A stretch of 64,000 nt of DNA. Origin: Anaerolineales bacterium (GTDB lineage: Bacteria; Chloroflexota; Anaerolineae; Anaerolineales; UBA11579). Below, in pieces: positions 32,680 to 37,926 of this stretch (position 1 is the stretch's first letter; each line of letters opens with the position of its first letter). The DNA is taken from contig JAHBVC010000001.1 of NCBI GenBank assembly GCA_019637755.1, positions 958,480 through 1,022,479 on the forward strand, in the 5' to 3' direction. The position numbers were made by a program, and so were the translations under genes. The notes beneath the pieces are model-generated. The model was not told the DNA's origin, made no database searches, and was given only the letters and a program-made list of their open reading frames with translations.

Positions 32680-32726
32680 AAAATAAGCCACCTGTTTGCA
32701 CAATAAAACAGGTGGCTTATTTTTTG
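32680..32726 (+). terminator. terminator after gyrA
   Basis: AAAATAAGCCACCTGTTT, a loop of about 9 nt, AAACAGGTGGCTTATTTTTT. A long and nearly perfect stem with T-runs on both sides. Confidence 0.92.
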
Positions 32727-32772: not shown

Positions 32773-34296
32773 ATGCAACGAACGATCTGGCTCCCCTGGC
32801 TCTTGCTGCTGTTGGCCGCGCTGGCCTGCAACTACCCGCGCACCACGCTCGGCCCCGCCGCGGCCGCCCCCAGCCCGGCGCTGGCTGCCGCCACGCCACA
32901 GGGTGCCGCGGCCCCGCCGCCTACGCTGCCGCCGACGCGTGACCCGAACACCCCGATCCTCACCCCTACGCCGGATGCGCCGCATACCCAACTCGCCCTG
33001 CGCAGCGAAGCCAGCCAATACACCGTGCAGCCCGGCGATTCGCTGAATGCGATTGCCGAGCGCATGGGCCTCAGCCTGCAGCAGTTGCTGGCAGTCAACG
33101 CCATCGCCAACCCGAATGCACTCAACGTCGGTCAGGTGATCAACATCCCCGCGCAGGAGATCAGCAGCCTCGGGCCGGATTTCAAGCTCATCCCTGATTC
33201 GGAGCTGGTCAACGGCCCCTATGCCATCGTCTTCAACGTTGCCGATTTCGTCAACAACCAGCCAGGCTACCTCAAACAGCATCAGGAGCAGGTGGACCAG
33301 CAGTTTCTCAGCGGCGCGGCGATCGTGCAACGCGTGGCTAACGAATACTCGGTGAACCCCAAGTTGCTGCTGGCCCTGCTGGAGTATCACAGTGCCTGGC
33401 TGAGCAACCCCAGCCCCAACGGCGCCAGCCTCAGCTTCCCGATGGGCAAGCAAGATGCCTGGCGCAGTGGCCTATACCTGCAGCTCTCTTGGGCGGCAGA
33501 TAATCTCAACAAGGGCTATTACGATTGGCGCGCCGGCCAGGTGACCGCCTGGCGCACGCAGGATGGCGTAGCCATTCCGCCCCACCCCAGCATCAATGCC
33601 GGCACGGCTGCGCTGCAGAACCTGTTGGCGCTGATGCACGCCGAACCTGCCTGGCGCAGCGCGGTGAGCGAGGCGGGCTTCTTCCAAACCTATCTGCGCC
33701 TGTATGGCTACCCCTTCGATTACGCCATCGAACCCGTGCTGCCTGCCGGGCTCAGCCAACCAGCGCTGCAGCTACCCTTTGAGCCCGGCGTGCGCTGGGT
33801 CTTCTCGGGTGGCCCGCACGGGGGCTGGGGCAACGGCTCCGCCTGGGCGGCGCTCGATTTCGCCCCCAGTGCCGAGATCAGCGGCTGCAATGCCAGCAAC
33901 GATTGGATCGTGGCCGCCGCAGACGGCTTGATCGTGCGCGCCGATAACGGCGCCGTGGTGCAAGACCTGGATGGCGACGGCTACGAGCAAACCGGCTGGA
34001 CGCTGCTCTACATGCACATCGCTCCGCACGATCGCGTGGCGGCGGGCACTTACCTGCGCGCCGGCCAACGCATCGGCCACCCCTCGTGCGAAGGCGGCGT
34101 GGCCACCGCCACCCATTTGCACATTGCCCGTCGCTATAATGGCGAGTGGATCCCGGCTGCCGGCAACCTGCCCTTTACCCTCGAGGGCTGGGTCTCGGTG
34201 AGCAACGGCTTGCTCTACGATGGCAGCCTGCTGCGCGATGGCGTGCAGGTGGATGCCTGCGAATGCCGTTTCCCCGCCAATATGGTGCAGCGTTAG
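32773..34296 (+). CDS. LysM / M23-peptidase-like lipoprotein, first of three paralogues
   Basis: A 507-residue lipoprotein (Cys 19, lipobox A-L-A-C). A Pro/Ala/Thr spacer is followed by a LysM peptidoglycan-binding domain (about 82-127, Y-T-V-Q-P-G-D-S-L). A helical middle domain (about 140-330) contains N-P-K-L-L-L-A-L-L-E-Y-H-S and resembles a lytic-transglycosylase fold without its E-S. The M23-like domain (about 345-480) has G-G-P-H-G-G-W, A-L-D-F-A-P, Y-M-H and T-H-L-H-I, the four metal/catalytic positions. Inside the last domain is D-L-D-G-D-G-Y-E-Q, an EF-hand-like calcium loop. Conserved Cys occur in S-G-C-N, P-S-C-E-G-G and C-E-C. It leads a three-gene unit. Confidence 0.88.
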   Translation: MQRTIWLPWLLLLLAALACNYPRTTLGPAAAAPSPALAAATPQGAAAPPPTLPPTRDPNTPILTPTPDAPHTQLALRSEASQYTVQPGDSLNAIAERMGLSLQQLLAVNAIANPNALNVGQVINIPAQEISSLGPDFKLIPDSELVNGPYAIVFNVADFVNNQPGYLKQHQEQVDQQFLSGAAIVQRVANEYSVNPKLLLALLEYHSAWLSNPSPNGASLSFPMGKQDAWRSGLYLQLSWAADNLNKGYYDWRAGQVTAWRTQDGVAIPPHPSINAGTAALQNLLALMHAEPAWRSAVSEAGFFQTYLRLYGYPFDYAIEPVLPAGLSQPALQLPFEPGVRWVFSGGPHGGWGNGSAWAALDFAPSAEISGCNASNDWIVAAADGLIVRADNGAVVQDLDGDGYEQTGWTLLYMHIAPHDRVAAGTYLRAGQRIGHPSCEGGVATATHLHIARRYNGEWIPAAGNLPFTLEGWVSVSNGLLYDGSLLRDGVQVDACECRFPANMVQR

Positions 34297-34298
34297 CC

Positions 34299-35855
34299 AT
34301 GACTTCACGAATGCTACGACTCCTCGTCCTCAGCCTGGCGCTGGCGGGCGCCAGCCTGATGTGCAGCAGCGGGTACATCACCCCGCAGAGCCTGCGCGCC
34401 ACGCAGGATCTGCTGGCCCAGCTTAGCGCCACCGCCAGCGCCTTCGTGCCCTCGGCCACGCCAACCGAGCTGCCCAGCCTGACCCCAAGTTTGCGCGCCA
34501 CCGCCAGCCCCAGCCCCACCCCGCAAGAGAGCCCTTCGCCGGCGCCGCCGTTCATCTACACGGCGCAATCCGGCGATACGCTGGCGGCGCTGGCGGTGCG
34601 CTTTGGCGTCGACCCCGGCCAGATCGCCTCGCCGCGGGATATTCCCAGCGGGTTGATCCCCCCCGGCCAGATCTTCACCATTCCGCATGCCGTCGGCATC
34701 ACCACGCCCAATGACAAACTCGTGCCGGATAGCGAAGTGGTTTACTCGCCCTCGGCCAGCGGCTTTGACCCGCAGGCCTATAGCGATCCCTTTGCCGGCT
34801 ACATGAGCACGTATCGCGAATACCTACCCTCCGCGTGGTACAGCGGGGCCGGCGTGGTGCTGCGCGTAGCGCAGGAGAATTCGCTCAACCCGCGCCTGCT
34901 GCTCTCCATCCTGCAATACCAGAGCAATTGGGTGCTGGGCCAACCCACCAACAACAGCGCCATCGATTTCCCGATTGGCTACCGCCTGCCGCAGGCCCAC
35001 GGCCTGTACCAGCAACTCACCTGGGTAGCCAAGCAGCTCTCCACTGGCTACTACGGCTGGCGCGAAGGCCGCCTCACCGAGATCAGCTTTCGCGACGGGG
35101 TGCGCATGCGTATCGCCCCGGAGCTGAATGCGGGCAGTGTCGCCATTCAGTATCTGTTCGCCCAACTGTATGACTACGAAGAATGGCTAGATGTCATCAA
35201 CCGCCATACCGGCTATCCCTTCACCCACGCTTCGATGTTTCCGGATCCCTGGGTGCGCGCTGCCCAGATCGAGCCGCTGTTTCCGCCAGCGCTCTCGCAA
35301 CCCGCGCTCAGCCTGCCCTTCCTCGAGCGCCAGGTGTGGTATTTCACCGCCGGGCCGCACGGCGCCTGGGAGCGCGAAGGCTCGTGGGCCGCTCTGGATT
35401 TTGCGCCCAGCAGCAGCCAGCCCGGGTGCGTGGCCTCGACCCACTGGGTCACCGCCGCCGCCCCGGGCCTGGTGGTGCGCACCAGCCCCGGGGTGATCGT
35501 GGTAGATATGGATGCGGATGGGGATGAGCAGACCGGCTGGGTGATCCTCTACCTGCATGTGATCGGCGACAGCACTCCGGCCGAAGGCACCTGGCTGGAT
35601 CGTGGCGACCGCCTCGGCCACCCTTCATGCGAAGGCGGCGCGGCCACCGCCACGCATGTACATCTGGCGCGCAAGTACAACGGCGAATGGATTGGCGGCG
35701 GCGGGGCACTGCCCTTCGTGCTCAGCGGCTGGACGGTAGAATACGGGGCAGACGCCTATCTGGGCAACCTGACCCGTGATGGGCGCGTGGTGGTGGCGTG
35801 CACTTGCAGCGGCAAGGATAGCCAGATCACCCTCAGCAGTGATGACCCCTACTAA
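34299..35855 (+). CDS. LysM / M23-peptidase-like lipoprotein, second of three paralogues
   Basis: A 518-residue paralogue of the preceding gene, starting 2 nt after its stop. Signal peptide with Cys in S-L-M-C-S-S-G (Met before Cys makes a weak lipobox), Thr/Pro/Ser spacer, LysM domain (Y-T-A-Q-S-G-D-T-L), the helical middle domain (N-P-R-L-L-L-S-I-L-Q-Y-Q-S, Gln where the first copy has Glu), then the M23-like domain with G-P-H-G-A-W, A-L-D-F-A-P, Y-L-H and T-H-V-H-L. The calcium-loop equivalent is D-M-D-A-D-G-D-E-Q. Cys pattern as in the first copy (P-G-C-V, P-S-C-E-G-G, C-T-C). ATG 34299 is used because it starts the signal peptide. Confidence 0.87.
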   Translation: MTSRMLRLLVLSLALAGASLMCSSGYITPQSLRATQDLLAQLSATASAFVPSATPTELPSLTPSLRATASPSPTPQESPSPAPPFIYTAQSGDTLAALAVRFGVDPGQIASPRDIPSGLIPPGQIFTIPHAVGITTPNDKLVPDSEVVYSPSASGFDPQAYSDPFAGYMSTYREYLPSAWYSGAGVVLRVAQENSLNPRLLLSILQYQSNWVLGQPTNNSAIDFPIGYRLPQAHGLYQQLTWVAKQLSTGYYGWREGRLTEISFRDGVRMRIAPELNAGSVAIQYLFAQLYDYEEWLDVINRHTGYPFTHASMFPDPWVRAAQIEPLFPPALSQPALSLPFLERQVWYFTAGPHGAWEREGSWAALDFAPSSSQPGCVASTHWVTAAAPGLVVRTSPGVIVVDMDADGDEQTGWVILYLHVIGDSTPAEGTWLDRGDRLGHPSCEGGAATATHVHLARKYNGEWIGGGGALPFVLSGWTVEYGADAYLGNLTRDGRVVVACTCSGKDSQITLSSDDPY

Positions 35856-37416
35856 GCAGCCCCTCTCCTTACTCGCCAGCCTATGGCTGTGCGGCTGCCT
35901 GCTGGCGGCCTGCCGCCCCCAACCCGCCCCCACGCAAACCGCCGCCGCCACCGCGGATGCTAGCATCGCCCAGGTGAGTACCGCCCAGGTAGCCATCCTC
36001 ACCCCTGAGCTCACCGCTACGCCGCCGCCGGCGCGCCCGCTGTACGATCCCGGTACGCTGGTGGACTACACCGCCCAAACCGGCGATAACCTGATTGCCC
36101 TGGCAGCCCGCTTCAATACCACGGTGCGCGAGATCCGCGCCGCCAACCCGATCATCCCCGATACGGCTACGACGATGCCCGCCGGCTTTCCAATGAAGAT
36201 TCCGGTCTATTACCGCACCTATTGGGGCTCGCAATTTCAAATTCTGCCTGACAGCTTGTATGTCAATGGCCCGGCCCAGCTGGATTTTGACACCCACGCC
36301 TTTGTGGCCGCCCAGCCCGGCTGGCTGAAGAACTACCGCGAATACGCCGCCGGCCAGCACCGCGATGGCGCCGGCCTGGTGGATCTGGTGGCGCAAAATT
36401 TCAGCGTCAGCCCGCGCCTGCTGCTGGCCCTGCTCGAATACCAGGCCGGAGCGCTAAGCCAACCCGTGCTCGACGATGCCATCGGCCCCTACATGTTGGG
36501 CTATGAACACCAGTTTCACCGTGGCGTCTATTTGCAACTGGTGTGGGCCGCCAACACCCTCAATAATGCCTACTACCAATGGCGCAATGGCAAGCTGATC
36601 GAGTTTGATCGCCCGGATGGCACGATCTACCGCCCTGACCCCTGGCAGAACGCAGCCAGCGTCAGCCTGCAGGAATTCTTTAACACCACATTGCCACAAG
36701 CAGATTTTGCCACGGCCATCGGCCCACAGGGCTTTATCCAAACCTATACCGATCTATTCGGTGACCCCTGGGCAGCGGATGAGCCGCACATCCCCGGCAG
36801 CTTGCTACAACCCGAATTACGCTTGCCCAGCCCACCGGGCGAGCTATGGTCCTACACCGGTGGCCCACACACGGGGTGGGGCACTGGCAATCCCTGGGCC
36901 GCGCTGGATTTTGCCCCGGGCAGCGAGACGCGGGGCTGCGTTAGCACCACCTCATGGGCGCTGGCGATGGCGGATGGCTTGGTGGTGCGCTCGGAGCCGG
37001 GCACGGTTGTGCTGGACTTGGATGGCGATGGCGATGAGCGCACCGGCTGGGTGCTGTTCTACCTGCACCTGGCCACCAACGGGCGGGCGGCGGCCGGGCA
37101 GCAAGTGCAAGCCGGCTGGCCGCTGGGCCACCCCTCGTGCGAGGGCGGCTCGGCCACCGGTACGCATGTGCATATTGCGCGTAAGTACAACGGGGAGTGG
37201 ATCGAAGCGGCCGGCGCGCTGCCGTTTGTAATGGAAGGCTGGACGGCGGGGGAAGGCAGCGGCGGCAGCTACACCGGCACGCTTACCCGCCTGGGCCAGG
37301 TGGTGCGGGCGTGCACCTGCTCAGATGCCGCCAGCAGCATTGTTTCGCGGGCGGCCATCGTGCCGTTTCCTACGCTGCAAATGCTGCCGAGCGAGACGGC
37401 CGCGCCCAATCCCTAA
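35842..37416 (+). CDS. LysM / M23-peptidase-like lipoprotein, third of three paralogues
   Basis: A 524-residue paralogue whose ATG overlaps the end of the second gene by 14 nt, so the three are co-translated. Lipobox L-L-A-A-C, Thr/Ala/Pro spacer, LysM (Y-T-A-Q-T-G-D-N-L), the helical middle domain (S-P-R-L-L-L-A-L-L-E-Y-Q-A) and M23-like motifs G-P-H-T-G-W, A-L-D-F-A-P, Y-L-H and T-H-V-H-I. The calcium-loop is D-L-D-G-D-G-D-E-R, the best of the three. The C-terminal tail after C-T-C is about 30 residues longer than in the others. Likely acts on or binds the cell wall; activity is inferred from motifs only. Confidence 0.88.
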   Translation: MTPTKQPLSLLASLWLCGCLLAACRPQPAPTQTAAATADASIAQVSTAQVAILTPELTATPPPARPLYDPGTLVDYTAQTGDNLIALAARFNTTVREIRAANPIIPDTATTMPAGFPMKIPVYYRTYWGSQFQILPDSLYVNGPAQLDFDTHAFVAAQPGWLKNYREYAAGQHRDGAGLVDLVAQNFSVSPRLLLALLEYQAGALSQPVLDDAIGPYMLGYEHQFHRGVYLQLVWAANTLNNAYYQWRNGKLIEFDRPDGTIYRPDPWQNAASVSLQEFFNTTLPQADFATAIGPQGFIQTYTDLFGDPWAADEPHIPGSLLQPELRLPSPPGELWSYTGGPHTGWGTGNPWAALDFAPGSETRGCVSTTSWALAMADGLVVRSEPGTVVLDLDGDGDERTGWVLFYLHLATNGRAAAGQQVQAGWPLGHPSCEGGSATGTHVHIARKYNGEWIEAAGALPFVMEGWTAGEGSGGSYTGTLTRLGQVVRACTCSDAASSIVSRAAIVPFPTLQMLPSETAAPNP

Positions 37417-37425
37417 CCTGCTTGG

Positions 37426-37845
37426 CTAGACCGGGATGATTTCGTAATCGGTCTCGATCTGCACGGCCATCTTGAGCATGTTCTGCGCCGGGCAATACTT
37501 ATCCGCCGAAAGCTGAATGGCGCGCTCCACCGCGGCGGCGTCAATATCGTTGCCGGTGATCAAGTACTCGATCAACACATGCGTCCACACTTTGGGGTGT
37601 TCCTTGGCCGCCTGCGTGGTCACCTTGACTTGAAAGGCGGTCACATCCTGGCGTTTCTTCTGCAAAATTGAAATAACATCCATCCCCGTGCAGCCCCCCA
37701 GGCCGAGCGCCACCAGCTCCATCGGGCGCAAGCCTTCTTCGGTGCCGCCCACCGAGGCATCCGCATCCACATCGACTGAAAAATTGCTACTCAGCCCCTT
37801 GCCGCGAAAATTCAAGCCCTTTTTCCAATCCAATGCTACTTGCAT
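37426..37845 (-). CDS. OsmC/Ohr-family peroxide-reducing protein
   Basis: A 139-residue OsmC-type protein that reduces organic hydroperoxides with two Cys. The Cys pair is in L-G-L-G-G-C-T-G-M-D near residue 50 and K-Y-C-P-A-Q-N-M near residue 115, with the D-V-x-x-x-L-Q-K-K-R helix between. ATG 37845 with GGAGG at a spacing of 4 is chosen over the in-frame start at 37920. A -10 box TATAAT on the minus strand is at 37889-37894. It is convergent with the LysM-M23 cluster and divergent from sbcC. Confidence 0.92.
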   Translation of the reverse strand: MQVALDWKKGLNFRGKGLSSNFSVDVDADASVGGTEEGLRPMELVALGLGGCTGMDVISILQKKRQDVTAFQVKVTTQAAKEHPKVWTHVLIEYLITGNDIDAAAVERAIQLSADKYCPAQNMLKMAVQIETDYEIIPV

Positions 37846-37926
37846 GATGCCTCCATCCCGAAAATGTGTGCTGCGTGACCGCCAAATGATTATAGTGTAG
37901 AGGATAGCAGTTAAAATCAACTCAGC

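Follow-up and report, generated by a model that had tools for sequence, protein, structure and literature searches.

Three adjacent genes in the window, a stretch of 64,000 nucleotides from an Anaerolineales bacterium, raise the question of whether three versions of one LysM/M23 protein are kept side by side as working parts of the cell surface or as spare copies. The initial annotation favoured the former, and its description of the locus was borne out. The genes A, B and C, of 507, 518 and 524 codons, each encode a signal peptide with a cysteine, a spacer of 51–64 residues rich in proline, threonine and alanine, a LysM domain, a helical middle domain and a domain of the M23 type. The tight junctions that had been reported are present as well: A and B are separated by 2 nt (TAG cc ATG), and B and C overlap by 14 nt. 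The pairwise identity of B and C to A is 42–44%. This arrangement is not due to chance, since the same order recurs among 80 related loci. A search of the genome (2.26 Mb, two contigs) revealed no full-length member of the family besides A, B and C; at least five further M23 proteins are encoded in it.

The boundaries of the locus can be drawn on both sides. Between gyrA and the trio lies a hairpin with a folding energy of -26.2 kcal/mol (z -7.5), and none of 200 shuffled sequences was equally stable. The hairpin is likely to be a terminator that parts the trio from gyrA, and it could act in both directions. It was missed by the consensus terminator scan, and the promoter scan found no sigma-70-like site. 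On the 3′ side, an OsmC-like gene converges on the trio. This neighbour recurs at 32 trio loci, while the other neighbours change. The features of the locus are listed in Table 1.

Table 1. Features of the trio locus, with positions in the window; domain types are predicted.
Feature	Positions	Strand	Remarks
Hairpin, likely terminator, between gyrA and the trio	32680..32723	+	18-bp stem, 8-nt loop, U run
Gene A	32773..34296	+	507 aa; signal peptide with Cys19, LysM, lysozyme-like middle domain, M23A-type peptidase
LysM of A	33019..33150	+	residues 83-126; Pfam E 4.7e-15
Middle domain of A	33154..33780	+	residues 128-336; E204 at 33382-33384; GH23 Glu position is H206, 33388-33390
M23A-type peptidase of A	33751..34293	+	H349, D362, H415, H448, H450; C372, C439; DxDxDG loop 398-403
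Gene B	34299..35855	+	518 aa; domain layout as in A; atypical lipobox SLMC
LysM of B	34557..34685	+	residues 87-129; Pfam E 1.8e-5
M23A-type peptidase of B	35292..35852	+	H354, D367, HxH 453-455
Gene C	35842..37416	+	524 aa; domain layout as in A; canonical lipobox LAAC
LysM of C	36067..36162	+	residues 76-107 of Pfam match; E 4.1e-5
M23A-type peptidase of C	36802..37413	+	H343, D356, HxH 442-444
OsmC-like gene	37426..37920	-	converges on the trio, its 3′ boundary

The type of the C-terminal domain could be refined. The Pfam M23 model recognizes A above its cut-off, C falls just under it, and B lies below detection yet carries every catalytic residue. The M23-like domain noted earlier is thus present in all three proteins, but its type is M23A (beta-lytic/LasA) and not LytM. 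In LytM the spacing is H-x3-D. The proteins A, B and C contain an H-x12-D motif (residues in Table 1), together with HxH and an extra histidine as in LasA, for which this spacing has been published (PMC9662197). An AlphaFold model of residues 78-507 of A, built with 99 homologues, reached a pLDDT of 93.3 and a pTM of 0.88. Its C-terminal domain matches the MEROPS M23A peptidases over the whole fold with Z of 19–20 (LasA, 3IT5, 19.9; pseudoalterin, 6IK4, 19.7; Blp, 8AF1, 19.1; 160–161 residues), and the best M23 fold outside M23A gives 13.0. The domain also matches pseudoalterin and LasA in sequence, and a CEGG stretch is shared with the M23A peptidases. Model and motifs together assign the predicted peptidase domain to the M23A type. 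H349, D362, H415, H448, H450, C372 and C439 (A numbering) show no substitution in any of the 81 A, 77 B and 64 C copies, and the zinc and catalytic residues are kept in virtually all of about 230 homologues examined. One copy of B2, an additional gene found between B and C at some loci, has a single change. Because the active-site residues are invariant, none of the three lines resembles a pseudo-enzyme. Among the three, A has the most conserved M23 domain. A DxDxDG loop within the domain (33964-33981, 35505-35522 and 37015-37032) is nearly invariant and absent from the alignments of LasA and pseudoalterin. It resembles a calcium-binding loop, and a calcium site here is a guess.

The initial annotation assigned a lipobox to all three. 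A cysteine does follow the signal peptide in each of them, but in a test for [LVI][ASTVI][GAS]C after a hydrophobic segment only C (LAAC) matches; A (ALAC) is loose and B (SLMC) atypical. In the near relatives of B the cysteine is kept, with valine or methionine at position -1. A strict or loose lipobox is present in 59 of 64 relatives of C, 65 of 81 of A and 55 of 77 of B. Lipid anchoring is therefore uncertain, since the lipobox of B is atypical here and some homologues have no recognisable one. The LysM domains of A, B and C all pass the Pfam cut-off of 20.9 bits, with 55.7, 25.0 and 23.9 bits, respectively. Across the order the LysM of C (36067-36198) is far more conserved than that of A or B (mean p-distance 0.29 versus 0.47–0.51), which suggests a fixed ligand or partner for this domain.

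The helical middle domain received no name in sequence searches of Pfam or the PDB with A, B or C, and weak Pfam matches to Glucosaminidase or SLT are limited to a few family members. Folded alone, it was modelled by AlphaFold with a pLDDT of 94.4. Foldseek returned no match under E 0.001 for this model. The ranked lists of Foldseek and VIA-align 2 consist mostly of wall enzymes of the lysozyme superfamily, and nearly all VIA matches listed with Z above 6 are such enzymes. LytB is at the top (8.7), followed by AtlE (8.0), MltF (7.9), MltC (7.2), goose-type lysozymes (about 7) and Slt-type enzymes (6–7), moderate values that a common arrangement alone can attain. For this reason a profile-profile alignment was performed as a second test. 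Against GH23 domains of related genomes it scored 35.7, and the best of 60 column shuffles scored 23.9. A GH73 profile aligned in the same register as GH23, with a score not above the shuffles. In the GH23 register the canonical catalytic glutamate corresponds to residue 206, which is histidine in A and glutamine in B and C of this genome. Glutamate occurs at this position in none of 81 A copies, none of 64 C copies and 23 of 77 B copies; otherwise it is mostly Q, R, H or T. Most likely, the middle domain is lysozyme-like in its fold and has lost the usual catalytic glutamate. This substitution in nearly all copies of the family distinguishes the trio from the GH23 transglycosylases and GH73 glucosaminidases (MltF, Slt, LytB, AtlE), with which it shares the fold of this domain and a short motif near the catalytic helix.

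The middle domain is not restricted to the trio. A profile search of the phylum sample gave 16 further matches, trio copies excluded; 13 loci (L155-L167, for example L156:2160-4073 and L158:5644-12603) were extracted and 11 proteins were scanned with Pfam. In 10 of the 11 an M23 domain comes immediately after the middle domain, and then Golvesin_C, LamG or Ig-like domains. These proteins differ from the trio in that they do not match the full-family profile, their M23 domains score with ordinary M23 models and their C-terminal domains are others. Because the module recurs beside M23 in different families, it likely helps the peptidase to meet its substrate. One Anaerolineales protein of 2320 aa combines the middle domain with CARDB and fn3 instead of M23.

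The distribution of the family shows that the three genes are old. The best 80 loci from 84,980 genomes all belong to Chloroflexota. They contain A-B-C, A-B-B2-C or versions of these that are broken or truncated by contig ends; the exception is one A near a contig end. With strict E-value limits and many metagenome-assembled genomes, the 71 Anaerolineales genomes of at least 95% completeness gave three matches in 48 cases, four in 19, five in two and two in two, so that at least three copies are present in 69 of 71. Among 150 genomes of Anaerolineae outside this order a match was found in 71, 66 of which contain exactly one, and in 132 Chloroflexota genomes outside Anaerolineae the family was not found at E 1e-50. 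In the maximum-likelihood tree A (100/97), B with B2 (100/98), C (100/99) and B+C (100/99) are well supported. The single copies of the sister orders fall outside B+C, and their placement outside A+B+C as a whole has weak support (50/91). The tree is best read as two duplications near the base of Anaerolineales, A from BC and then B from C. The dN/dS values against near relatives, about 0.12–0.29 for A, B and C, indicate purifying selection. Recent duplicates and randomly scattered single copies are ruled out by the tree and the genome counts, and the proposal that the copies are not spares holds: they are three old orthologous lines retained together across the order. A phage origin was rejected, phage matches being of LysM size only. 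Apart from the OsmC-like gene there is no fixed neighbourhood, since adjacency to gyrA, sbcC and prfA is limited to near relatives, and no division or growth genes tied to the trio were found among the neighbours examined.

Chloroflexota are usually regarded as monoderms (PMC13319060), and it had been suggested that a monoderm or otherwise unusual wall could need the trio. This part of the initial annotation found no support. Anaerolineae genomes nearly all contain the mraY gene (154 of 160), whether they carry the family or not. Wall synthesis does not generally require the family, since many Anaerolineae possess mraY and no family member. Comparing the presence of the family with that of peptidoglycan synthesis was uninformative, as mraY occurs almost throughout the class.

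We propose, with moderate confidence, that ancient duplication gave rise to A, B and C as sub-specialised peptidoglycan endopeptidases of one operon, tethered to the membrane and bound to the wall. Each protein would be exported and most likely anchored by a lipid to the cytoplasmic membrane, and the disordered spacer would let it reach outward. The LysM domain would bind glycan, the lysozyme-like module without the usual catalytic glutamate would hold the glycan strand, and the intact M23A zinc site would cut peptide cross-links. The trio would have been fixed in the ancestor of Anaerolineales through two duplications of a gene that sister orders still have in single copy. The three enzymes probably divide their labour in wall expansion or in the separation of cells at the septum or in filaments. 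Redundancy with the other M23 proteins of the genome is possible.

Three other explanations have to be weighed against this proposal. The middle domain might be an active muramidase that uses E204, which would make each protein a two-headed hydrolase of glycan and peptide. The lysozyme-like fold speaks for it, and so does the wide retention of E204: it is present in 77 of 81 A copies, 55 of 77 B copies and all 64 C copies, and in 12 of the 13 distant proteins that contain the domain. However, the GH23 register places the glutamate at 206, and E204 gives way to Q or D in 21 of the 77 B copies; B of this genome has Q. A second conserved active-site motif was not found. We consider this explanation improbable. 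Still less probable is that the trio serves to lyse competitors or prey, as beta-lytic protease and LasA do, instead of remodelling the cell's own wall. Those M23A relatives whose function is known are indeed secreted lytic enzymes (PMC9662197). The trio differs from them by its export cysteine, LysM and lysozyme-like domain; the lipoprotein-type export signals and LysM of most copies, the near-universal retention in one order and the lack of a propeptide domain favour a housekeeping role. In the order of LysM and M23-family domain, and in sometimes being lipoproteins, NlpD, ActS and DipM resemble the trio. Their domains are of the M23B/LytM type and often inactive, they have no lysozyme-like middle domain, and the NCBIfam scores of the trio proteins are far under the cut-offs.

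It is also conceivable, though unlikely, that the three proteins assemble into a single obligate hetero-oligomer at the cell surface, with their peptidase sites acting together. This would be the multi-part machine suggested in the initial annotation. Such a complex would fit the near-universal retention of all three, the local A-B-(B2)-C order that persists in the best 80 loci while most neighbours change, and the close junctions, which in relatives are mostly no longer than 30 nt (43 of 77 A-B and 37 of 56 B-C pairs, as judged from predicted starts). Pairwise divergence in one of the three correlates with that in the others (r 0.77–0.81), but this is as expected from co-inheritance. Against a complex, in one genus (code g3) A is found on the opposite strand, some 9 kb away from B-C, with all three kept, and two Anaerolineales genomes have only two matches. 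Sister orders usually have one copy only; the ancestral protein therefore functioned on its own. A bolder version, in which an order-defining three-part complex uses dead lysozyme-like domains to position glycan for three M23A sites, and the dead module is a targeting domain dedicated to M23 throughout Chloroflexota, likewise seems doubtful to us.

The type of envelope in Chloroflexota is debated and, to our knowledge, wall remodelling in this phylum is almost unstudied. A literature search, thin on subscription journals, returned no paper on the trio family. Its parts are of known kinds; for the combination of LysM, lysozyme-like and M23A domains, the order-fixed triplication and the M23-associated domain no prior description was found. 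Under our preferred reading of separate endopeptidases, the nearly universal set of three enzymes offers a way to study how filamentous Anaerolineales extend their walls or separate their cells. The trio also provides marker genes for the order, and the M23-associated lysozyme-like domain could become a named family.

The B2 gene is best read from the tree as a later extra copy. It is located between B and C at loci L014, L021, L028, L034, L035, L043, L047, L050, L065 and L068. In the middle domain of B2, cysteine takes the place of the conserved Trp209.
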